From the NCBI GenBank assembly GCA_029866125.1, contig JARWZZ010000015.1, forward strand, positions 410,701 to 474,700: DNA of 64,000 bases, read 5' to 3'. This document shows, piece by piece, positions 7,730 to 36,773 of the stretch. Every line of letters begins with the position of its first letter. Position 1 is the stretch's first letter. A program made the translations under genes and the position numbers. The stretch is from Limnobacter sp. (lineage in GTDB: Bacteria > Pseudomonadota > Gammaproteobacteria > Burkholderiales > Burkholderiaceae_B). The notes beneath the pieces are model-generated. The model did not search any database, was not told the origin of the DNA, and was given only the letters and a program-made list of their open reading frames with translations.

Positions 7730-7935
7730 GATTTGTCCTCTTCTGTTAGGTAAACAACAGCTGGCCGGGATTGCGAACTCAATTCAGTGTCATCTTGATT
7801 CATTAAGGGAACATTAATGAATTATTCAGATCATGAAAATAAGCATACGCCCGTGGCCGAGGACTTCCAAGTTTTCTAAGATGAAAATTGGATGGGGATA
7901 TTCCCTTATTTGTGACCTTTGAATGTGACTCGCAT

Positions 7936-8700
7936 TTAACGAAGTGGCGTGCCCATTGCGTAAGGCAATAGCTCTATGACTTCTTTGGAAATGCCCATCG
8001 ACAAGTGTGTGGATTTGATCTCAATGTGTTCCACGTTGGGCGAGAAGCGGTCGATACACGCTTGCCAGCTAACGATGGAATCCTTTTTACTGTAAAGCGC
8101 AACAATTGGACACACGATTGGGTTTTCGAAGCGCTTGAGTGTGCTGTTTTCAACGGAATCCACATCCGTGCCGCGCATGTCGTACAGCGGTTTGACTGCG
8201 GTGTATTTGGGGCCGCCAATCACTGGGCTACCCAAGGTGACGATGCGACTGACCGATTGTTGCACTTCACGCGCTGCCTCGCGTGCCAAGTAGCCGCCCA
8301 AACTCCAGCCAAGTAGTTTGATGGGACCCTCTGTTTCAGAGGACAGGCGTTTGATGTCGTCCAGTACTTGGGGTAACAGTTTACCGACATCACCCGAGTT
8401 GAAACCCGCGCTCCAGTGGTGGGTTTTGTAACCAATGGAGTCCAAGTAGCGTTTGAGCACGCCCATGCTGGATGGGTAGGTGCCAAAGCCGGGTAACAGC
8501 AGCACAGTTTGGCCTTGGCCTACGTCTTTCCGATTCAAAAATGACCAGCTGGCCGCCAACTTCATGGCTTCCAATGGGGCTGCGACTTCACCAAGCAACA
8601 AGCTGAGCTTGGGCTTGCGGATTTGACTGCCGTAGCGTTTTTGGAATTCTGCCTTGTTCATTCTGGTGTGGGTGCCCGAGGTTACAACACCCGAGAACAT
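7936..8700 (-). CDS. Alpha/beta-hydrolase fold protein
   Basis: A serine-hydrolase-like protein of about 254 residues. The nucleophile elbow is GWSLGG and the oxyanion region is LLLPGFGTYP; SKKDSIVSW may carry the acid and STHLSMG the histidine. No signal peptide is visible, so it is probably cytoplasmic. The start is uncertain: a TTG at 8724 and ATGs at 8700 and 8661 are all in frame and none has a clear ribosome site. Similarity is to the general lipase or acyltransferase-like fold (PGAP1-like elbow), and the substrate cannot be named. It is followed on the same strand upstream by the SulP fusion gene. Confidence 0.78.
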   Translation of the reverse strand: MFSGVVTSGTHTRMNKAEFQKRYGSQIRKPKLSLLLGEVAAPLEAMKLAASWSFLNRKDVGQGQTVLLLPGFGTYPSSMGVLKRYLDSIGYKTHHWSAGFNSGDVGKLLPQVLDDIKRLSSETEGPIKLLGWSLGGYLAREAAREVQQSVSRIVTLGSPVIGGPKYTAVKPLYDMRGTDVDSVENSTLKRFENPIVCPIVALYSKKDSIVSWQACIDRFSPNVEHIEIKSTHLSMGISKEVIELLPYAMGTPLR

Positions 8701-8742
8701 AAGGCATTCTGTGTAATCCCACAAAGAGTAAACACTCTAGTA

Positions 8743-11073
8743 TTAACTGTTGTTGCTTAACAAAAGCGTTTGGTTGGACTGGCGAAGACGGGCCACCATG
8801 CTAACCGCAATGTGTTGTAAGAGGGACTGGCTTGCTGCTGGGCAATGTTCACTCAAGGATTCGAAGGCCGACTGGCTCAGGTGCAAAAGCCGACTGGGCG
8901 AGTCCGCGCGAATGCTGGCTGACCGGCTTTGCCCGTCCAGAAGGGCCATCTCGCCCACCAAGCTGCCAGGTTTGAAGCGCATCAGCCGCTCGGTGTGGCC
9001 GGGAGTTTCCAGCCAGGCACTGAGTTGTCCTTGGACCAACAGGTAAAGCCCATCTGCTTCTTGGCCTTTTTCGAACAAGGTTTGATGGGCATCCAAACTG
9101 ACGGCATCCCATTCTTTGGCAAAGTAGCCCAATTGGTCGCCCGGCAATTGAGACCAAGCGGGATGGCTGCCTAGAATGTCCTCAATGTTCAAATCTACTG
9201 TGGCGTCCAAGGTGCCCATGCCTTCTTGGCTATGCAAGTCACCTTCTTTTTGCTGTTGCAAAAGCCGATTTTCGATGGCCCAAAAAGCCTCTTCAGGTTG
9301 TGGGTAGCAAGCCACTCGGGACTGTTTGATCACTTGCTGAAAGGGTGCAAACCCGCCAGTTTCAGACGGTTTGGCGGGCAGTACCACCATGGATTGAATG
9401 CCGTGTTGCTTAAACCAGCGCAGCAGGCGGGCCAGGTTGTCTACCCCGGTGTCGTCAATGTAGCGCAGGCGTGTAAAGTCCAGCAGCACGAGCTGTTTTT
9501 GGATTAACTCGTCTTGCAAGCGCATATTAATTTGGGGCGAGTTGGCAAAAAACAGATTGCCTTCAAACCGAATCCAACTGAAATATTGGAATTCCTGATT
9601 GAGAATGGCCAAGTCACCCGTGGGCCTTTGGGTGCGAGAACGCACGCTGGGGTTGTGAATGATTTCGCTTAAGCCACTGCCGGTTTGCTGGCGCAAAAAA
9701 TAAACCGCCACAAAGATAACGCCTGTAAGTACGCCACCCAGCAAGTTAAACGCCCCTGCGGCAGTCAGCATGGCCACGATGACCCAAAAGGTAAAAGATT
9801 CGCTAGGCGCCAGTTGATCGTTTGGCCGAAACAAGCCTGTGATTTGCCGCAAAAACAGGCGATAAGTGCTGCCTTGAATGCTAACCAGTGAGGAAATGCC
9901 GGAGATGGCCGCCACTAACAAAATAGGAATGTGGCCCCAAAACTGCCACAGAGCAGCTGTGGTTAAAACGATGGCCAGAGCATAGGTGCCGTCACTCCAA
10001 CGGCTGCGGCTGCCCATGGCCAAACCGGCTGAGGTGCGGTTACTGAAATTGGAAATGGGCAGCACCAGCAGCAGCCCGGCCAGCATGTTGGACAGAGCCA
10101 AAACATTGAGCTCCCGCGCGGTGTCATGGCGGTATTCCAGTTGTTGGTCTGCCAGTAGGTGGGCGCACATGCTTTCAATTAAAACGATGGAGGCGGCGAT
10201 GACGCTGGCCAAGCCAATTTGAATCAAAAGCTCAGGGTTTTTTATCAGAAGGTTTTTGAGCAAGCTGCCCACTGCAAGCCAATGTTGGTCGGTGCTGCTG
10301 AATAAACTGGTCAGCGGGTACATGGGCGTTGCGGAGGCTTTTGGGCCCAGGCTATCGCCCAAGCCCATGCTGCTTAGCATGATGTACACCGAGCCGCCCA
10401 CCAGCAGGCCATACAAAGTGCTAAGTGGGCTTGGCTTGACCAGCCTGAAATACAACATGCCAGCGCCCACACACAGGCTTACTACCAAGGCGGGTAGGGA
10501 AATTTGATTGAAATGCCCCAGCAATTCCACCGGCTTGTTGTACACCGCCATGCCCAGCAGGGCTGGGATTAAAGAATAGAAGGTAAAAAAGCCGACCATG
10601 GTGTTCAGGCCAATCAGCACGGGCGCGGGTATAAATTGCATGGCGCGCCCCAAGCCTTGAGTTTGGGCCAAGTAAATGAGTAGCCCTGTGAGGCTAAGCT
10701 GGCCGGCCATGAGCAGCATCAGCGCATGGAATTGCACTGGGTCTGACATGTCAGAAAGGCCAGCGGTGCTAAGCAACAGCGCCACCGAGCCTGCAGTGAT
10801 AAACGAAGTGCTGCCCCGTGGCCCACCAAACTGGGCGGGTGCCTTGCCCAATAAAACCCCAACCACACCGCCCAACACTGCGCTGCCCAAACCCGCGTAA
10901 ATGGCATAGGAAATTCCCTCTGCACCCAAGGGTGAGAAGGCCAGAAGCCCATAAATAAATGCTTGGCAAAAGCCCGCGATGGCAACCACCGCGCCAGCTT
11001 TGAGTTCGGTTAATAGCACGTTGTGAGTAACAAGATAGATAAGTATTGGGGGGAGGGATAAAGCATAGCGCAA
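8743..11073 (-). CDS. SulP-family transporter fused to STAS and cyclic-nucleotide-binding domains
   Basis: A 776-residue inner-membrane protein. Residues 1 to about 470 form the SLC26/SulP anion-transport region with repeated hydrophobic helices. Residues about 495-610 are a STAS domain (LVLLDFTRLRYIDDTGVDNL). Residues about 635-760 are a cNMP-binding domain with the phosphate-binding cassette GEMALLDGQSRSAS beginning near residue 708. The cassette keeps the conserved Glu and Arg that contact cAMP or cGMP. The transported anion is unknown. The start appears to be TTG at 11073 and its ribosome site is weak. Cyclic-nucleotide gating of the transporter is inference from domain content; the window also encodes a class III cyclase. 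Confidence 0.88.
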   Translation of the reverse strand: MRYALSLPPILIYLVTHNVLLTELKAGAVVAIAGFCQAFIYGLLAFSPLGAEGISYAIYAGLGSAVLGGVVGVLLGKAPAQFGGPRGSTSFITAGSVALLLSTAGLSDMSDPVQFHALMLLMAGQLSLTGLLIYLAQTQGLGRAMQFIPAPVLIGLNTMVGFFTFYSLIPALLGMAVYNKPVELLGHFNQISLPALVVSLCVGAGMLYFRLVKPSPLSTLYGLLVGGSVYIMLSSMGLGDSLGPKASATPMYPLTSLFSSTDQHWLAVGSLLKNLLIKNPELLIQIGLASVIAASIVLIESMCAHLLADQQLEYRHDTARELNVLALSNMLAGLLLVLPISNFSNRTSAGLAMGSRSRWSDGTYALAIVLTTAALWQFWGHIPILLVAAISGISSLVSIQGSTYRLFLRQITGLFRPNDQLAPSESFTFWVIVAMLTAAGAFNLLGGVLTGVIFVAVYFLRQQTGSGLSEIIHNPSVRSRTQRPTGDLAILNQEFQYFSWIRFEGNLFFANSPQINMRLQDELIQKQLVLLDFTRLRYIDDTGVDNLARLLRWFKQHGIQSMVVLPAKPSETGGFAPFQQVIKQSRVACYPQPEEAFWAIENRLLQQQKEGDLHSQEGMGTLDATVDLNIEDILGSHPAWSQLPGDQLGYFAKEWDAVSLDAHQTLFEKGQEADGLYLLVQGQLSAWLETPGHTERLMRFKPGSLVGEMALLDGQSRSASIRADSPSRLLHLSQSAFESLSEHCPAASQSLLQHIAVSMVARLRQSNQTLLLSNNS

Positions 11074-11214
11074 GTTGGCGGGTTTCAGTGCTCAACATCG
11101 GAGCTTCACATCGGTGCAAACCCCTGCATCCAAAAGTTTACATACTGAGTAATAACAGAATAATCAAGATGGTCACAAACGCAGGCTATCCGAAACAATG
11201 CGTGGGAGAGAGAC

Positions 11215-13995
11215 ATGTTAAAGCAGGTTGTGTTGCTGGGTGCCGCGTGCGTGGCGCTGGCGGGTTGTTTGGGTGGCAGTGACAGCGGCATTGCAGATGG
11301 CGGTGGAGGACAACCCACCAGCCCTTCTGAAGTGGGGGGTGGCAGTACCCCGGGCTACAACGTAACAATCACCCGCACTACCTATGGCGTGCCCCACATC
11401 AAAGCCAAAGATTACAAAAGCTTGGGCTATGGAGAGGGCTATGCTTTTGCGCAAGACAATTTGTGTGTTTTCTTGGAAGACTTGCTGACCATTCGTGGCG
11501 AAAGGGCTCGCTTTTTCGGCCCCCAAGGCACTTATACGATTGAACCCAACGGGTCGACTGCCAACAACGTGGACAGCGACTTTTTCTGGAAAAGCCTTTT
11601 TGCTCACAAAGAGGCAGATGCCAAAGGCATTAAGCGCACCGCTTGGGAAAAAACCCGAGAGAACACGCTACCGGAATTCAAAGAAGTGGTAACCGGATAC
11701 ACCGCAGGTGTTAACCGGTACATTGCCGAGCTGAAAGCGGGTGAGCAGGTTTACACCAAAGCAGATGGCAGCAAAGTCACTGCCCATGCGGCCTGCGCCA
11801 ACGCAGAATGGCTAAAACCGATTGAAGAGGCGGATTTGTATCGCCGGTTTGTGCGGCTGTCCGTGTTGGCCAGTACATCTGTGTTTGTGGGGGAAATTGG
11901 CAGTACGCAGCCGCCGTCAGGCTTGCCTGTTGTGGGAGGAGCCTTGAGTGGTGCTGCAGGTGGTGCTGTTGCGTTGCCGGCCGCTAGGTCTGCTGCAAAC
12001 GCAACTCCAACTCCTGCCTCAATACCAGCCGCATTGAAAAACAGCAAAGAGGGCCAATTGGCTTTGGCTGCCTTGCAGAACAATCCCAACCCTTTTACTG
12101 CCATGCAGGACAAGGACAAATTCGGCAGCAATATGTACGCCTTTGGTCGGGATGGTACGCAAAACGGTCAATCTTTGGTTTACGGCAACCCCCACTTTCC
12201 GTGGAAGGGTACCGAGCGTCTTTACCTCAGCCACAACACATTGGAAATTGACGGCAAAAAGAAAATGGACATCATGGGCGTGGGCCTGTATGGCGTGCCC
12301 GCAGTGTTGATTGGTTTCAACGAGAAGTTAGCTTGGAGTCATACGGTATCAACCGCATTCCGCTTCACCATGTACCAGTTGCAGGTGAACCCGCAGAACC
12401 CCCTGCAATACATGAAAGACGGCAAGGCAGTCGACTTTATCGCTTTGCCCACTGAAATTGAAGTCAAAGGCGCGGATGGCCAAGTCAGCAAAATGAGCCG
12501 CACCATGTACCGCAGCGAGTACGGCCCGATGCTGAAATTGACAGTGAGTGGCGTACCCGTGCTGGATTGGAACCAGTTGTATGCCTTTACAGTGCGTGAT
12601 GCCAACTTGGAAAATGACAGGCTGATCAACCAGTTTGCCAAGTGGAACATGGCCGAATCGCTGGAAGAATTCATTGACCTACACAAAAGCGTGCTGGGTG
12701 TGCCTTGGGTAAACACCGTAGCCAGTGGGCCCAATAAGCCTGCTTACTATGGCGATGTCACCGTGGTGCCCAACGTGCCAGACTCGCTAACGGCCGCTTG
12801 CAAAATGGAGCCATTCCACACTGTATTGCAGCAGCTTTCCCCCGGTTTGCCTGTGTTGGACGGCAGCAAGAGTGCTTGTGCATGGAAGGACGACGCCGAT
12901 GCCCCAGCCAAGGGCGTATTTGGTGGGTCCAACTTGCCGACTTTGCTGCGTGATGACTACGTGACCAATTGCAACGACAGCCATTGGCTGACCAACCCCC
13001 GCGCCCGGTTGAGCGGTTTTGCCCGCATTATTGGTGACGAAAATGCCGAGCGTACACTGCGTACCCGGCTGTGCATTTTGCAAGCAGAACGCCGCCTTGC
13101 GGGTACCGATGAGTTTGGTACCACCAAAAAAATGAGTCAGGAGCTGATGAAAACCATCGCTTTAAACAGCGAAATTTATTCAGCCACCATCACCAAAGAA
13201 CAGGTTTTAGGCACGTTGTGCCAGTTGCCCGCCATTCCCGGTACCAGTTCACCTGCCCCAGTGCAAACCGCTGCAGCTTGCGCCGCTTTGCGCGGTTGGG
13301 ATGGAAAAGACAACTTAGACAGCAAGGGTGCCCACCTGTGGCGTGAGTTCTGGGACAGGGCAATAGCGCCACCCGGTTTGATGGGCACCAACTTGCCCGT
13401 TGGCATACCCCAATTGCAGCCACCAGCCTTGGCCTTGCCGGTTGTGGGCACATTGCCCATTCCTGCGCTGCCGGTTTCCCTGCCGACCAATCGCTGGACT
13501 ACCGGGTTTTCAGCGGCTGACCCTGTAAACACGCCACGTGGCTTGAACCCAGCCAACCCGTTTATTGCTGCTGCGTTTGCGGATGCAATTACGGCGGTCC
13601 AGAACTCGGGCTTTGCCTTGGATGCCCCGTTGAAAGACATTCAGTTTTCAGGGCAGCATTTGAATTCTAAAATCGCGGTGTTTGGTGGCTCTAGCCCGGC
13701 AGGCGCATTCACCATTGCGCGCACAGGCCCACTGAGTAAAGAGGGTTACAAAATTGATTACGGCAACAGCTACATTCAAGCTGTGACATGGGTGCCCGAC
13801 AACAATGGCGGCTTTAAACCCAAGGCCGATGCGATGTTGACCTACTCCAACTCCACCGACCCAGCCAACCCGCATTACGATGATTACACCAAAGCGTATG
13901 CGGCCAAAGAGTGGCTAACCTTGCCATTTACCCCGGCTGAAATTGAGGCTCAGAAGGTGGGCCAGACCCAAGTTTTGACGGCACCTTTTAAATAA
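11215..13995 (+). CDS. Penicillin acylase family Ntn-hydrolase, lipoprotein
   Basis: A 926-residue exported amidase precursor. The lipobox LAGC places Cys18 as lipidated. The alpha part contains TRTTYGVPHIKAKDYKSLGYGEGYAFAQDN. The autocleavage and nucleophile site is Gly304-Ser305 (KFGSNMYAFG), followed by the usual GNPHFPW. A low-complexity Ala/Pro-rich stretch at residues 228-275, just before the nucleophile, may be the excised spacer. The family cleaves beta-lactam or fatty-acyl amides, including acyl-homoserine lactones (PvdQ, QuiP). The specificity here is unknown. A good ribosome site (GGGAGAGAG) precedes the ATG. Downstream is a strong terminator. Confidence 0.88.
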   Translation: MLKQVVLLGAACVALAGCLGGSDSGIADGGGGQPTSPSEVGGGSTPGYNVTITRTTYGVPHIKAKDYKSLGYGEGYAFAQDNLCVFLEDLLTIRGERARFFGPQGTYTIEPNGSTANNVDSDFFWKSLFAHKEADAKGIKRTAWEKTRENTLPEFKEVVTGYTAGVNRYIAELKAGEQVYTKADGSKVTAHAACANAEWLKPIEEADLYRRFVRLSVLASTSVFVGEIGSTQPPSGLPVVGGALSGAAGGAVALPAARSAANATPTPASIPAALKNSKEGQLALAALQNNPNPFTAMQDKDKFGSNMYAFGRDGTQNGQSLVYGNPHFPWKGTERLYLSHNTLEIDGKKKMDIMGVGLYGVPAVLIGFNEKLAWSHTVSTAFRFTMYQLQVNPQNPLQYMKDGKAVDFIALPTEIEVKGADGQVSKMSRTMYRSEYGPMLKLTVSGVPVLDWNQLYAFTVRDANLENDRLINQFAKWNMAESLEEFIDLHKSVLGVPWVNTVASGPNKPAYYGDVTVVPNVPDSLTAACKMEPFHTVLQQLSPGLPVLDGSKSACAWKDDADAPAKGVFGGSNLPTLLRDDYVTNCNDSHWLTNPRARLSGFARIIGDENAERTLRTRLCILQAERRLAGTDEFGTTKKMSQELMKTIALNSEIYSATITKEQVLGTLCQLPAIPGTSSPAPVQTAAACAALRGWDGKDNLDSKGAHLWREFWDRAIAPPGLMGTNLPVGIPQLQPPALALPVVGTLPIPALPVSLPTNRWTTGFSAADPVNTPRGLNPANPFIAAAFADAITAVQNSGFALDAPLKDIQFSGQHLNSKIAVFGGSSPAGAFTIARTGPLSKEGYKIDYGNSYIQAVTWVPDNNGGFKPKADAMLTYSNSTDPANPHYDDYTKAYAAKEWLTLPFTPAEIEAQKVGQTQVLTAPFK

Positions 13996-30073: not shown

Positions 30074-30154
30074 ATGAGGGGTAGACTATCTTCATTAATC
30101 AGCAAATCAAAACATCAGTAGATGCAGTGCGTCACTAATGAGCGAGGAGAGACT

Positions 30155-30997
30155 TTGAAAACTTTCATCAAAGGTAGTGCATGTCGTGGTTTTCTCATTC
30201 TTTTAGCCTTATGTTTTGATGAAACTTGGGCTGGTGAATCGCCGATAGGAATGGCAATCTCTTTAAAAGGAGCCGTTACATCTGATGTTGGTAGAGATAA
30301 AAAATCTATAGTCCCGATGGCTTATCTCTATGAAAACGATGAAATTCTGGTCGAATCTACTTCAGAATTGGTCTTCACGCATTACGGGAAGCAATTATTG
30401 ATCAAAGTGGTAGGACCCTCCGGTATATCCCTGACTAAAGATGGGTTCAAATTAATCAGTGGCGAATACCCAAAAAGTCAGCCTATGACCGAAAAAATGG
30501 TTCTTTTGAAAAATCAGTCCGGGTTGGTAGCGGGCGCTACGAGAATGAGAGTTATCAACACCTCCTATGATTCCAGTTTGGTTTATCCTCCACCAGAGTC
30601 TTTACTTTTAAGCCATGCTTTTGAATTCAAGTGGCCTGGTGAAATTACGAGTGAATACCTAGTCGAGTGGCGCATTGAAGGGGCTGATCAAACCCTTCAT
30701 AGGGCTAAAGTTCGTGGTAACACTTACCAAATGCCTCCGGAGATAAAGCTGCCAAATGATATTAAAATAATATGGAAAATTTCTCTGCTTAGTGATGATG
30801 CCTCGTCAGTTATTAGACCAATGGTGAGTTCCTTCCAAGTTGCAGGTGATGACATAATTCATCATGTGAGATCTTTAAAACCTACACCTGAATCAGATTT
30901 TGCTGAAAAGATTTTATTTCTGCATTTTCTTCAAAGTAGAAAAGCCTTTATTGAGGCCGATCAATATTTAAAATCAATAAGTCCTGTGTCGCCTTAA
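30155..30997 (+). CDS. Secreted FecR-like domain protein
   Basis: A 280-residue protein in an AT-rich stretch. The start is TTG at 30155, set by the strong GAGGAG site; the upstream ATG/GTG options have none. The signal peptide is GSACRGFLILLALCFDETWAGE. Residues about 35-110 form a FecR-like beta domain (GAVTSDVG, AYLYENDEILVESTSELVF, LLIKVVGPSGISLTKDGFKLISGEY). The C-terminal half has a fibronectin-like strand pattern (FEFKWPGEITSEYLVEWRIEGADQ). Its stop codon abuts the end of the convergent cyclase gene. FecR-type proteins beside CHASE2 cyclases and CHAT proteins recur in bacteria, to my recollection. Confidence 0.7.
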   Translation: MKTFIKGSACRGFLILLALCFDETWAGESPIGMAISLKGAVTSDVGRDKKSIVPMAYLYENDEILVESTSELVFTHYGKQLLIKVVGPSGISLTKDGFKLISGEYPKSQPMTEKMVLLKNQSGLVAGATRMRVINTSYDSSLVYPPPESLLLSHAFEFKWPGEITSEYLVEWRIEGADQTLHRAKVRGNTYQMPPEIKLPNDIKIIWKISLLSDDASSVIRPMVSSFQVAGDDIIHHVRSLKPTPESDFAEKILFLHFLQSRKAFIEADQYLKSISPVSP

Positions 30998-32806
30998 TTA
31001 AACCTGATCCTTGAACGGCGCGGAAGCATATACATTTATGCCTGAGCGCCCCTTCAATTGCTGAAGTCCTATAGGTACGATATCTTTTTGATGTCCAAGC
31101 GCGTCGGCTACTGATTCAGACAACACTATTGAATAGCCCAGTGATTTGCTTAGCCCTTCTAATCTGGAGGAAATATTTACAGCATCACCGATTGCAGTGT
31201 ATTCATGTCGATCAGATGATCCAACTCGTCCAACAATCACCTCACCTACGTGTAATCCTATCCCGATTTGAATGGGTATCTTGCCCAGCCTTAAACGCTC
31301 CTCATTAAAAGCATCTAACTCGGAAAGCATTGCAGTTGCGGCATTGAAGGCATCAACTTCTTTGGTCATAGATGCTTTGGGGGCCCCAAAAAAGGCCATC
31401 ATGCCATCTCCAATAAATTTGTCTACGGTACCGTCAAACTGATGAACAACACGGGTCATTCTAGAAAAATACTCGTTCAATAAGTTCACTATTTCTGAAG
31501 GTGGACTTTTTTCACAAATACTCGTAAATCCTCTTATGTCTGAGAATAATATACAAACATGTTCCAGACGACCTTGAGAGGTGTTTGAAACCCTCCCTGT
31601 CATGATTTCATTCATCACTGAAGGGCTTACGGAGCCTAAAAACGCATTTTTCAGTAATCTGCGTTCTAAAGCCTGAGTCCATGCATCCACTGTCCCCCTA
31701 ACTGTGGTAATCCAAGTCAACACTAGAATAATTGATCCCGCATGAAACCAAAATTGATTTTTCAAACTAATAGTTTGAAAAATGAATAACGCTATGACAA
31801 ATAGTGATACGTACAGAATTTTCGCGGGTCTACTCTGTATGAAGTAGGTAAGATTTAAGATGAGGACGATAAACATAAGCCAGGTTGATGAAAGAGTCTG
31901 AATCAAACCATCCCCTTCCAAATTACTCAAGATTTGAGCATGCAGTAGAACACCGGGCATATCATTGGAGTCTTTTTTCCATGCTGCAATTGAAACTGGG
32001 GTTCTGAGCAAGTCTTCGTCGTCCAAAACATTACCTAGAAGGACTATCTTCCCATCAAACCAAACTTTAAGATTTTCGCTATCACCTTGTTCATGGGCCT
32101 TAAGTACATCGCTAATGGGTAGATAGTTAAAGCTCGGTCCTTTTTGAAAGTCAATAAGCCCCTGATTGTCTGAGCGAGAATGCCCGGAGGCAACCAAGAT
32201 TTCCGAGCTAAATGTTTGATCTTTCTCACTGGGTTGAATGCTCGCCCCTGGGTAGGTTCTTATCACACCGTCGAGATCTTTTTTGAATAATGCAGATGCT
32301 TCAGGCTCAAACTCACCAAATTGACTCATCAGCGCAGCTTTGTAATCTATGTGGATATTTGCGAATGCCTCGCGTTGTTTATCCCATGCTTTTGCAACTA
32401 CTAAGGGAGTTGATGAGACTGTGCTGAGGATCCCGGCTATTAAAGTTTGATGGTAATCGTTATCGATTGATGATTTGGAGTAAATATTTTCATAGCGCTT
32501 TGTAGGTAAAACCAAATCTATTCCTACTGATTTTGCTTGGCCGATTTGTGTTGCCTGCAAAAATTCGCTTATATATCTGTGGCTCAGCGCTAGAGGTTCG
32601 TCAATTTGATCTAAGAATTTTTGGTCTATTCCGACAACTACCGGAGGATTTAGATGTTGCGTGGGAAATTTTAGACGATTGAATTTTTGTATTGAGTCTA
32701 GAAGCTTCCCATCGAGCAACCAAGCACTTGATGTGCATATGTATATGAAACTAGAGACCAAGCAAATCGTAAATCCAGCAAAATGATATTTTTTTTGTTT
32801 TATCAA
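30998..32806 (-). CDS. CHASE2-domain class III adenylate cyclase
   Basis: A 602-residue membrane signalling enzyme that makes cAMP. A helix at about 8-28 leads to an extracytoplasmic CHASE2 sensor (about 30-300), then three helices (about 306-369), then the catalytic domain (about 410-590). Metal ligands are Asp423 (FSDIRGFTSI) and Asp467 (KFIGDGMMAFFG). Lys463 and Thr537 (EYTAIGD) specify adenine, and Asn544 and Arg548 (DAVNISSRLE) stabilise the transition state. All are intact, so activity is expected. It lies 65 bp downstream of the CHAT gene on the same strand, probably in one operon. Composition is AT-rich. Confidence 0.9.
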   Translation of the reverse strand: MIKQKKYHFAGFTICLVSSFIYICTSSAWLLDGKLLDSIQKFNRLKFPTQHLNPPVVVGIDQKFLDQIDEPLALSHRYISEFLQATQIGQAKSVGIDLVLPTKRYENIYSKSSIDNDYHQTLIAGILSTVSSTPLVVAKAWDKQREAFANIHIDYKAALMSQFGEFEPEASALFKKDLDGVIRTYPGASIQPSEKDQTFSSEILVASGHSRSDNQGLIDFQKGPSFNYLPISDVLKAHEQGDSENLKVWFDGKIVLLGNVLDDEDLLRTPVSIAAWKKDSNDMPGVLLHAQILSNLEGDGLIQTLSSTWLMFIVLILNLTYFIQSRPAKILYVSLFVIALFIFQTISLKNQFWFHAGSIILVLTWITTVRGTVDAWTQALERRLLKNAFLGSVSPSVMNEIMTGRVSNTSQGRLEHVCILFSDIRGFTSICEKSPPSEIVNLLNEYFSRMTRVVHQFDGTVDKFIGDGMMAFFGAPKASMTKEVDAFNAATAMLSELDAFNEERLRLGKIPIQIGIGLHVGEVIVGRVGSSDRHEYTAIGDAVNISSRLEGLSKSLGYSIVLSESVADALGHQKDIVPIGLQQLKGRSGINVYASAPFKDQV

Positions 32807-32871
32807 ATTGATCTGTGGCCTCCTACCTAGATTTATTTGGGGTATTACCCTTTTTGCTGATTCTACTCAAA

Positions 32872-34971
32872 CTACCACAAGCCTACTGATGTGAAAGGAG
32901 CCCAGCTGTTGATGTTTGCGGATTTGGGATCCGTGAGCAATTCAAGGTAGGCTGATCTCATTGCCTGAGTTGCGCCTTTGGCGCGGAAATTCTTGTAGAA
33001 GATCTTCATGAATTTTGACGTTGCCAAATCCTCAACCTGCCATAGCGAAAGGACTAGTGTGTCGGTGCCGGAAATTAAGATTGATCTTTTGAAGCCCCAG
33101 AATTCGTCTCCTTTTGAGATCTTTCCCAATCCGCTTGAGCATGAGGAAAGGACCACTAAATTGCTACGTTGAAGATTTAGTTCGTAAAACTCCCTCGCTT
33201 CAATGTCTCCTTCACTCAGTTTCAACTTGGAAAACATGGGGTCAATTTCGTCCACCACGCTGTGCGCTGCAACATGGATGATGCCTGTGTTCTGCGCATT
33301 GTTCAAAAAGTTCTGACGGTTAGCTTCCTTGCGGAAGTAAGCAAGTGGCGTTGGGATTAATTCAACAATTGCTCGAACTTCATCTTCTGCTCCGGGCAAA
33401 TCCATGACTGGGTCGTTTAAATCTGGATTTCCCAAGGCAAGGAGCCCTGCCTCTGATTTTCGAGGCTTTCTCAATGTTTCCTGTACAGCCCCTAAAGAAA
33501 GTGCTACACCAACAGCGTGATCCTCAACCAAAAACTTGTCGTTCAGCCTTAGCGCATGAGGCGGGACTCTGTGGAGCATCTTGTGCGGGATGAAAACTAC
33601 AGTTTCCTGGGGCTTAAAGGTGATTTCTCCCAAAAGGAGTTTGCCGAGATCGTTCGCTCCTATCAACGCATCCTTTTGTTGGGCCTCAATGGTGGAACGC
33701 CATTTCGACACCTTGCTGGAAAGCTCGTTTTCATTAACTGAGATAGTGTGAGACTTAATCGCATTAGTCCGTAGTTCCCAAAGATAAACTTCCCTTTTGG
33801 TTACATAGAAGTTTAAAACCACAATATTGGGGGGAATCAGATTAAGAAGATTTTCTGGGCTTAGCTTTGCTTGGTCTAGCGCTTTGTCTTTGTTTACAAC
33901 TTTCACTCGATCTCGCAATAAATCCAGTGCCGTACGTGCTCTACCGCGCTCAGAAACTGCAAGTGCCAAATCGGATTTACCGTTTCCGATGTAAAGAGCG
34001 ACTCCCCAATCAAAAATATCTTGCGCTTGTGCAAAAAACGCAGTTTTGAATTCTTCTACTTGAAAGTTAGCTCGTAAACCTTCTGCTTCGAATAAGGCTT
34101 GCTCTAAAAATAGCTCAGCTTCTGTTGATTTTCCCTGAGCATGTAATGCTTTGGCCATTCCAAAAGCCGACCACATGGCTGCTCTAGACTTTTTATTGGA
34201 TTTACGAGCAATTTCAAGACTAGATTGAAAGCCTTTATAGGCGTCGTCGTAACGTTTTTCTAGTAGGTTTAGCTCTGAAAGAGTCCGTTGTACCAGTGAA
34301 GCAGTATTAGAGTTAGTATTTCCCGTATGTTCTTGTAAAATCTTTCTCGCTTGCTCGTAGTCACCTTTTTGAATAAGAACGGAAGCTATTGAGATTTGTA
34401 AGTAATCTCGACGTGGCGTAAAGAAACTAGCGCGTTCTAAGCCCATATTGTAATTCTTCAAAGCAAGGTCAAGTTGACCCTCTTTAAGATCTAAATCTCC
34501 TAAAAGCTTGTATGCAGCGGCCTCTAGTTGATGAGCTACATTGAAGTTTGGGTTGTTAAGGCGCTTAGAGTTTTCAAGGCTTTGTAATACCCAGACCCTG
34601 CTCTTTTCTAAGTCGCCTGCGTATCCGTACGCGTAAGCCAGGTCGCGCATAGCAAACACTTGAGCCTTTTGATTCTTGTCTCTTACACCCAAGTACAAGG
34701 CTTTGGTAGCTTCGCGAACAGCCTCTCTAAACCGACCTGCTTCAGCTAAGGTAATTGAGTTTCCGCAGTAATCTCCCCAGCTCTTTTTTGTTGAATCGGC
34801 GTCATAAAGGCGCTCACCTTCTATGGCTAGTGCTGTAGCGTTTTCCACGTCACCAAGCATTGCTTGTTCTATTTTAATGTTTTGCTGCTGGGCATACACA
34901 CCCTTGCCGCAAATCATCAGCCCCCAAAATGTGAATATGATTCCAGTAGTCCAGTACTGATATTTGCGCAT
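32872..34971 (-). CDS. Exported TPR-CHAT (caspase-like) protein
   Basis: A 699-residue protein. The N-terminus TTGIIFTFWGLMICGKGVYAQ looks like a cleavable signal peptide, so the protein would act in the periplasm. TPR-like helical repeats fill residues about 35-345. The CHAT domain (Caspase HetF Associated with TPRs) covers about 440-699. The catalytic pair is His570 (HVAAHS) and Cys611 (LSSCSSGLG), both present. Before it, VVFIPHKMLHRVPPHAL and LALGNP are typical CHAT motifs. It is transcribed first, ahead of the CHASE2 cyclase. Targets are unknown; a proteolytic link to the neighbouring sensors is inference. Confidence 0.88.
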   Translation of the reverse strand: MRKYQYWTTGIIFTFWGLMICGKGVYAQQQNIKIEQAMLGDVENATALAIEGERLYDADSTKKSWGDYCGNSITLAEAGRFREAVREATKALYLGVRDKNQKAQVFAMRDLAYAYGYAGDLEKSRVWVLQSLENSKRLNNPNFNVAHQLEAAAYKLLGDLDLKEGQLDLALKNYNMGLERASFFTPRRDYLQISIASVLIQKGDYEQARKILQEHTGNTNSNTASLVQRTLSELNLLEKRYDDAYKGFQSSLEIARKSNKKSRAAMWSAFGMAKALHAQGKSTEAELFLEQALFEAEGLRANFQVEEFKTAFFAQAQDIFDWGVALYIGNGKSDLALAVSERGRARTALDLLRDRVKVVNKDKALDQAKLSPENLLNLIPPNIVVLNFYVTKREVYLWELRTNAIKSHTISVNENELSSKVSKWRSTIEAQQKDALIGANDLGKLLLGEITFKPQETVVFIPHKMLHRVPPHALRLNDKFLVEDHAVGVALSLGAVQETLRKPRKSEAGLLALGNPDLNDPVMDLPGAEDEVRAIVELIPTPLAYFRKEANRQNFLNNAQNTGIIHVAAHSVVDEIDPMFSKLKLSEGDIEAREFYELNLQRSNLVVLSSCSSGLGKISKGDEFWGFKRSILISGTDTLVLSLWQVEDLATSKFMKIFYKNFRAKGATQAMRSAYLELLTDPKSANINSWAPFTSVGLW

Positions 34972-35103
34972 AAGGGCACTCTACTTAAGTAGGTTCAATA
35001 TCGCTTGAATACTGTATTCATATCCCAAATTTGTCAATTAGAGTGTAATTTTTGTGCGTCGGAAATTCTTGAAATATCACCATTAAATTATTGAGAATGC
35101 TTT

Positions 35104-35813: not shown

Positions 35814-36773
35814 ATGCAATCCCCTCGGGACATGGGCCACGACACCATTGAACACCGCGATGTGAAGTTTGATTTCGATCTGAGTCAGTTAAAAAAACAC
35901 TGGTTCAACAATGACCCTTGGATGACCCATTTATTCAATGGACTTTTTTGTGCTGTACCCGATGGGGAGCGCTGGGTGATGCAATCCGCGCGCAAGCAGA
36001 TGGGCAAACTTAAGGATGAAAAGTCGATAGAGACCGTGAAGCGCTTTATCAAACAAGAGGCCTCGCACTCCCGTGAGCATGATTTGGTGAACGCAATCAT
36101 GTTGAACTTCGGCGTACCTGCTGACAAAGCAGAAAAGTTTTTTAAACAGGTGCGGCAAAAGGTGCAGGCAGTCAGCAGTGACGACATGCAAGCTTCCATA
36201 GCCGCAGCAATCGAGCATTTCACTGCTGTGTTGTCTGAAGTGTTGCTGGAATCCCCCGACTTGTTTGATGACATGGACCCGAAAATCCGATCCTTGGTGT
36301 ACTGGCACATGGTTGAGGAAACCGAGCACAAAGCCGTTAGCCACGAGCTGTTTGAGCAAACTGTGGGCAAGGGCCCCAAGCAGTATTTAATGCGGGTGAC
36401 GGGCCTGGTGGGTACTTTTGGTTTTGGGTTTTATGCGGTGTTTTTCAATATGTTTTACTTGCTGTATGCAGACAAGCAATTGGGCAATGTGGCTTCAGCA
36501 GTGCGCATGCTGAAAATTATTGGCTACCAACCCGGCTTTGTTCGCAAAATACTGATGGCCTGTGTACCTTACCTCAAGCCCGGCTTTCACCCTTGGGAGC
36601 GCGATAACCGTGCTTTGATTGCGGTTTGGAAAGAAACCTATCAACGCACAGGTGATGTGTTGCAGGCCACAGAAGAGTTTCGAGCGACCCAAGGCAAGCC
36701 GATGGCTTTGCACAAGCGAAGTGCCGGCAAGCGTCAAGTCAAATCATCCAATCCGGGAGCTCAAGCCGCATGA
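35814..36773 (+). CDS. Predicted metal-dependent hydrolase family protein (PF10118)
   Basis: A 319-residue mostly helical protein. The ferritin-like pattern of metal-binding residues is seen in EASHSREHDLVN and YWHMVEETEHKAVSHELFEQ, as in the PF10118 family, called a metal-dependent hydrolase but of untested activity. One or two hydrophobic helices lie near residues 195-225 (GLVGTFGFGFYAVFFNMFYL). The ATG is preceded by GGGAG at 9 nt. Its last codons overlap the ATG of the SDR gene (ATGA), so the two are coupled. Association with SDR and Baeyer-Villiger genes suggests lipid or steroid-like substrate processing, which is inference. Confidence 0.8.
   Translation: MQSPRDMGHDTIEHRDVKFDFDLSQLKKHWFNNDPWMTHLFNGLFCAVPDGERWVMQSARKQMGKLKDEKSIETVKRFIKQEASHSREHDLVNAIMLNFGVPADKAEKFFKQVRQKVQAVSSDDMQASIAAAIEHFTAVLSEVLLESPDLFDDMDPKIRSLVYWHMVEETEHKAVSHELFEQTVGKGPKQYLMRVTGLVGTFGFGFYAVFFNMFYLLYADKQLGNVASAVRMLKIIGYQPGFVRKILMACVPYLKPGFHPWERDNRALIAVWKETYQRTGDVLQATEEFRATQGKPMALHKRSAGKRQVKSSNPGAQAA

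Follow-up and report, generated by a model that had tools for sequence, protein, structure and literature searches.

Secreted FecR-like proteins and CHASE2 adenylate cyclases form a recurring gene unit with a predicted protease of either the CHAT or the Peptidase_C14 type

Several described bacterial systems resemble parts of a three-gene block found in a 64,000-nucleotide stretch of Limnobacter sp. DNA (assembly GCA_029866125.1, contig JARWZZ010000015.1, positions 410,701 to 474,700; hereafter the window), which codes for a FecR-like secreted protein, an adenylate cyclase with a CHASE2 domain and a TPR-CHAT protein. CHASE2 is found widely as a sensor domain, and a 2016 account described its ligands as unknown (PMC5192318). 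In magnetotactic strains the gene of MtxA, a protein with a signal peptide, an N-terminal beta region, an Ig-like domain and TPR-like helices, is followed by a CHASE2-cyclase gene, as here a CHASE2 cyclase adjoins the FecR-like gene; unlike for our block, the available sections of that report name neither a CHAT nor a caspase gene (PMC4439547; PDB 4z29). The Burkholderia BiofilmReg operon likewise sets a secreted FecR/LysM protein beside a CHASE2 receptor, but there a histidine kinase and a response regulator replace the cyclase, and the sections consulted name no protease (PMC5192318). In S. meliloti the CHASE2 cyclases CyaD1, CyaD2 and CyaK raise cyclic AMP (cAMP), the FecR-domain gene smc02177 lies in the neighbourhood of cyaD1 and clr, and NsrA, a protein of the outer membrane, stands upstream of the cyclases; the portions consulted report no protease (PMC5498481, PMC13001267). 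On the protease side, the TPR-CHAT protease Csx29 of the type III-E CRISPR system Craspase makes a single cut in Csx30 that relieves sigma factor inhibition, and differs from the protein considered here in being cytoplasmic and RNA-guided with a sigma factor output (PMC10028731; PDB 8eey among others). In DdvA (PDB 8rot, 8rw5) the CHAT domain is fused to a transmembrane anti-sigma factor, which is not the case in the window.

The three genes of the window are one recurring unit, in which the FecR-like gene and the CHASE2 cyclase gene form the constant core. Each part is known, but their combination did not turn up in open-access print, where no paper sets CHASE2 beside a CHAT domain, with or without FecR, and those naming both a CHAT domain and an adenylate cyclase do not, going by their listing, concern this pairing; subscription papers were mostly uncovered by the search. 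The genes and the parts of their products are as follows.

30155-30997, plus strand: FecR-like secreted protein, 280 residues from TTG (291 from an ATG at 30122); open reading frame, family alignment and structure model
30248-30484, plus strand: FecR-like beta domain, residues 32-110; model m93b46be107c5
30548-30550, plus strand: Arg132, a residue of the FecR-type motif, within a linker modelled at low confidence (residues 125-138); alignments A3 and A5
30587-30841, plus strand: Ig/FN3-like domain, residues 145-229; model, with FN3 and MtxA structure matches
30848-30979, plus strand: C-terminal TPR-like helices, residues 232-275, resembling those of MtxA; model, the 4z29 match spanning the Ig domain and the helices
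30998-32806, minus strand: CHASE2 class III adenylate cyclase, 602 residues; PF05226 and PF00211
31856-32740, minus strand: CHASE2 domain, residues 23-317; Pfam
31028-31570, minus strand: cyclase catalytic domain, residues 413-593; Pfam
32872-34971, minus strand: TPR-CHAT protein, 699 residues, predicted to be exported; PF12770, TPR, signal-peptide-like N-terminus and model
32881-33615, minus strand: CHAT domain, residues 453-697; Pfam
33262-33264, minus strand: His570 (codon CAC), predicted catalytic; invariant in the alignments and matching the HG motif of Csx29-type proteins
33139-33141, minus strand: Cys611 (codon TGC), predicted catalytic; invariant in the alignments and matching the AC motif of Csx29-type proteins

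These open reading frames bear out the gene set and strands given by the initial annotation, a reading of this DNA from its letters and open reading frames, as well as its statement that the FecR-like and cyclase stop codons abut, which they do without overlap. For the FecR-like gene we prefer the TTG at 30155, also the start in the initial annotation, over the ATG at 30122, because a Shine-Dalgarno-like GAGGAG precedes the TTG.

The same annotation had taken the triplet to recur, and on testing for recurrence beyond chance this stands from three anchors, namely the CHAT proteins of the family, the CHAT proteins of the order and the FecR-like proteins. Within the genome itself, which has two CHAT and five CHASE2 matches in total, a second, diverged triplet lies on contig C20, where the CHAT, cyclase and FecR-like genes follow one another in this order on a single strand, their GC content being ordinary; over their aligned parts the two CHATs are 27% and the two cyclases 28% identical. 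All five CHASE2 genes adjoin a FecR or FecR-like gene, the three further ones each lying beside a PF04773 FecR-domain protein. Across 151 genomes of the family, for which 15 CHATs were listed, CHASE2 was found within 1.3 kb of six of the eight scoring above 100 bits and of none of the seven weaker ones, and each of these six is accompanied by a small FecR-like gene whose product has a signal-peptide-like N-terminus. The 399 genomes of the order gave, among the matches listed, 119 further CHAT places of at least 100 bits, taken as 117 stretches; with identical proteins removed and the window, L008 and L014 added, there were 126 distinct CHAT frames, 34 within 7 kb of a CHASE2 gene and 92 not. 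Profiles of the FecR-like family made from seven seed loci, used together with the classic FecR profiles of the genome, matched beside 23 of the 34 linked CHATs (three of these being seed loci) against 2 of the 92 unlinked ones. Hand reading of the remaining linked loci added four FecR-like genes, along with two genes for DUF928 proteins, and a retrained profile placed a FecR-like gene beside 28 of 34 linked versus 2 of 92 unlinked CHATs (Fisher p 6e-20). We regard 23 of 34 as the cleaner figure, because the retrained profile was partly taught on the same loci; the same partly self-taught profile gave 54 FecR-like or FecR matches in 767 kb near cyclases versus 2 in 2211 kb elsewhere.

An alignment-based profile was required for the FecR-like anchor, as a single-sequence search for relatives recovered only the query. 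Built from 19 members (A5), the profile found matches in 48 of the 399 genomes of the order, and 40 of the 42 loci scoring at least 39 bits were examined. A cyclase was present at 38 of them (all but L276 and L177), a CHAT at 18, a Peptidase_C14 at 13, both proteases at none and neither at nine. Gene order and orientation vary: eleven gene-order strings occur among the 41 loci that have both CHASE2 and a protease, that of the window being seen once, and 36 of these loci include a FecR-like gene.

At two loci (L123, 5958-6656, minus strand; L150, 11285-12028, plus strand) a DUF928 protein occupies the FecR-like place beside a CHAT-CHASE2 pair. L177 and L195 have a FecR-like gene near a CHAT with no CHASE2 match; L177 retains a complete CHAT frame, and locus L195 is cut short by the end of its contig.

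The protease slot holds either a CHAT or a Peptidase_C14 caspase, and never both in the loci examined. Pfam places Peptidase_C14 far above its cut-off in all seven C14-type proteins scanned, six of which have MORN repeats. At L016 and L036 the caspase protein has WD40-type repeats, and at L017 the caspase is the tail of a 1723-residue two-partner secretion (TPS) exoprotein; the recognition part, be it MORN, WD40-type repeats or a TPS body, looks exchangeable. Among the 80 cyclase-anchored loci L028-L107, only L066 and L070 have a C14 without a FecR-like gene. C14 matches also lie near many CHATs unlinked to CHASE2, and thus the presence of C14 alone is not diagnostic. In cyclase trees the linked cyclases fall into two main lineages, the window type and the second-copy type. 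The well-supported branches of a 52-row tree call for at least five changes of the C14 label and at least seven of the CHAT label, with partner labels set by hand and some 'none' labels stemming from limited flanks (as at L278, where the cyclase is at a contig start). The sister of the window cyclase is the cyclase of L017, which lies beside a caspase gene (support 100/99), and that of L166, with a CHAT, is sister to that of L265, with a C14 (support 100/100).

The C14 loci of the MORN type are L266, L268, L269, L272, L273 and L267, and tandem FecR-like gene pairs occur at the C14-type loci L263, L264, L267, L268 and L272. The protease partner also varies within one genus (genomes G034, G147, G131, G090 and that of the window; loci L014, L013, L016, L015, the window and L008), its forms being a short CHAT, a long and convergent CHAT, and a WD40-caspase.

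The cyclase scores above the Pfam cut-offs for both CHASE2 (79 bits) and Guanylate_cyc (99 bits), and has hydrophobic segments at residues 13-31, 301-319 and 325-343. Its residues D422, K462, D466, T536, N543 and R547, which we take to be the catalytic ones, are invariant across seven aligned cyclases, in agreement with the initial annotation's description of the site as intact. The residue pattern is presumably that of an adenylate rather than a guanylate cyclase, with cAMP as the predicted product. A reader for cAMP is available in the genome, given its 12 cyclic-nucleotide-binding matches, 11 of them above cut-off. Two neighbours of such cyclases deserve mention. L009, beside a CHASE2 cyclase of the same genome, codes for a single chain that combines FecR with TPR repeats and a beta barrel of the TonB type (7787-11311, minus strand), which may be an outer-membrane form of the same input. 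At L271 a gene with cyclic-nucleotide-binding, GGDEF and EAL domains (10938-12578, minus strand) adjoins the FecR-like/cyclase pair, a possible link from cAMP to cyclic di-GMP.

The FecR-like protein lacks a PF04773 (FecR) match, as do the five relatives scanned and the 19 members of A5, and its sole Pfam match, to DUF7354, is below the family cut-off. Its kinship with FecR rests on its family, on a conserved motif arginine and on the structure model (pLDDT 81.7). This arginine, part of what we take to be the FecR-type motif, is present near the end of the beta domain on comparison with the PF04773 proteins of the same genome, the neighbours of its other CHASE2 genes, in which the motif is also visible. 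Signal-peptide-like starts were found in 40 of 47 FecR-like frames versus 72 of 300 controls. A Foldseek comparison of the model with the PDB returned mostly FN3 domains, with the MtxA structure 4z29 at ranks 6 and 11; MtxA was not among the best 50 rows of a VIA-align structure comparison. In layout the protein agrees with MtxA, sharing the signal peptide, beta region, Ig-like domain and TPR-like helices. Any tie to MtxA in sequence would be weak: the family profile reaches MtxA residues 21-168 with an E value of 0.0084, as the second of 11 matches after an FN3 protein.

The TPR-CHAT protein scores 179.2 bits for PF12770 against a cut-off of 24, and is below the NCBIfam Csx29 cut-off (41.6 versus 300 bits); its model (pLDDT 84.4) matches separase and Csx29. 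The Cys-His pair had been called intact, and His570 and Cys611 are indeed invariant in nine of nine aligned CHATs from triplets, the dyad being kept in all 39 CHASE2-linked CHATs. The protein is a predicted protease. Its N-terminus also passes the signal-peptide check that the initial annotation had proposed, as judged by a crude purpose-made rule rather than a trained predictor.

Co-divergence was assessed from the pairwise distances of 32 triplets, which are large, with the catalytic domain partialled out. All 32 taken together gave 0.50 for FecR-CHASE2, 0.38 for FecR-CHAT and -0.10 for CHAT-CHASE2. On ranks, the window-type sets gave 0.43-0.65, 0.23-0.39 and -0.24 to 0.11, respectively, a pattern consistent, if indirectly, with the FecR-like protein being a bridge between the other two.

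We propose, tentatively and at somewhat short of even confidence, that the block is a protease-controlled cAMP receptor, modelled on Csx29, which cuts Csx30, and on DdvA, where a CHAT domain is joined to an anti-sigma factor. The protease would serve as the sensor through its TPR, WD40, MORN or TPS parts and act upstream. The TPR-CHAT protein, predicted to be exported, might cleave or remodel the secreted FecR-like adaptor as its substrate; the adaptor, a predicted binder of the CHASE2 domain, would be the physical bridge; CHASE2 would read its state and so set the cyclase output; and the resulting cAMP could act via a cyclic-nucleotide-binding protein encoded in the same genome. A wider form of this proposal, which we put forward with a little more reserve, is that such blocks are a bacterial counterpart of protease-activated receptors, in which exported caspase-fold proteases (CHAT or C14, on varied scaffolds) gate transmembrane adenylate cyclases via a FecR/Ig adaptor. 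Bacterial caspase-family members have mostly been discussed in cell-death and defence settings. The censuses above name a FecR-like protein as a concrete partner of CHASE2 and tie the FecR-like/CHASE2 pair to caspase-family proteases; should the protease act upstream, this would give CHASE2 cyclases an input and exported CHAT and C14 proteins a job, and if the wider form is true, proteolysis outside the cytoplasm would lead to cAMP inside.

A number of observations weigh against a receptor under protease control. Nine of the 40 FecR-like loci are protease-free (L257 and L258 being short stretches, and the gene lying at a contig start in L260 and L262), as are the FecR-like/cyclase pairs of L028, L029 and L033, and hence the pair seems able to work alone. 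Arg132, invariant in A3 and A5, was considered as a protease cut site and dropped, since it is conserved with and without a protease nearby and so gives no evidence of one. The catalytic dyad is kept in 93 of 95 unlinked CHATs too. Export, by the crude rule, applies to 25 of 30 linked and 53 of 81 unlinked CHATs (Fisher p 0.10; background 98 of 300), a difference that is not significant. The architecture in the initial annotation, with a secreted FecR-like protein, a cyclase and a predicted protease that probably carries an export signal, is upheld, but not the view that export is special to these CHATs. In the rank version for all 32 triplets FecR-CHAT falls to 0.14 (FecR-CHASE2 0.49, CHAT-CHASE2 -0.17), and in the second lineage (n=11) ranks give 0.15 for FecR-CHASE2, 0.41 for FecR-CHAT and 0.42 for CHAT-CHASE2. 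Among the described systems, smc02177 near cyaD1 is an output, a cAMP-Clr target dispensable for perception (PMC5498481), and deletion of mtxA gave no phenotype under standard conditions (PMC4439547).

The alternative that survives best, though we hold it unlikely, is that the FecR-like protein and the CHASE2 cyclase are the whole sensor, with the protease a cAMP-regulated secreted output enzyme acting elsewhere outside the cell. The protease-free pairs just listed fit this, and in S. meliloti it is not the FecR gene alone but other exported proteins too that are Clr targets dispensable for perception (PMC5498481); the swap of CHAT and C14 suits an output that can be exchanged no less than an input that can. 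The FecR-CHAT co-divergence seen in most sets (0.38; 0.13-0.41) is, however, no requirement for a freely acting output enzyme, and CRP-type sites are not in excess in the window (31 found versus 31.9 expected).

Securin inhibits and chaperones separase. By this parallel the FecR-like protein could be an inhibitor or chaperone of the protease, with the cyclase reporting its release, in which case complex assembly would suffice and no cut would be needed. The matches of the CHAT model to separase and Csx29 and the FecR-CHAT co-divergence agree with such an arrangement, to which Ig and TPR-like parts would also be suited, as parts apt for protein binding, in the way argued for MtxA (PMC4439547). 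Yet FecR-like genes occur without a protease, and two members of the same genus (L013 and L014) are reduced to the beta domain while the CHAT is retained, which makes this account improbable.

Base composition bears on the remaining explanations. The block (30122-34971) has a GC content of 0.424, and its three genes taken singly have 0.401, 0.410 and 0.446; segments of 4850 bases across the window average 0.509 (sd 0.026). Of the 39 loci with enough flank, only that of the window shows a drop of more than 0.04 relative to its flanks. The AT-rich character noted by the initial annotation therefore holds for the window copy, whose history it marks, and is ruled out as a trait of the module, since the other 38 comparable loci are at ordinary GC content relative to their flanks.

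The suggestion that the block serves anti-phage defence, as a Pycsar-like unit or by caspase-like abortive infection, is not favoured and appears very unlikely. PycC models do match the cyclase, CHAT domains are known from conflict systems (PMC10907252) and the low GC content suggests acquisition. The PycC matches, however, are limited to the generic catalytic part (residues 369-594), no Pyc effector or other PADLOC model matches the three proteins apart from these and a weak TPR match, none of the 10 neighbouring proteins has a PADLOC match, Pyc effectors included, and the low GC content is not common to the other loci. That the genes merely travelled together by chance or as cargo in one acquired segment, which the low GC content of the window copy might suggest, is next to negligible in view of recurrence from three anchors, changing gene order and ordinary GC content elsewhere.

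An empty-site search in 11 other genomes of the genus found no insertion boundary of the block, because the flanking Peripla_BP_2 gene, kept at 72-79% in five of them, sits in different neighbourhoods there and, for the gene at 35814, the genomes searched contain no close orthologue (best 33%). Repeats around the block are short and imperfect. Sigma-70-type promoters are fewer than expected (4 found versus 11.0) and carry no weight here. Upstream of the CHAT start there is one further feature.

35006-35020, no strand: palindrome TGAATACAGTATTCA, 15 bases including a single central one, lying 35 bases before the CHAT start

This is the sole exact copy in the genome, and it may be an operator of the CHAT-cyclase gene pair. 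In the second lineage (L012, L121, L125-L127, L130, L133, L143 and L147) a ShlB/FhaC-like secretion gene, with ShlB confirmed by Pfam in L012 only, follows the triplet, hinting at a two-partner-secreted client.

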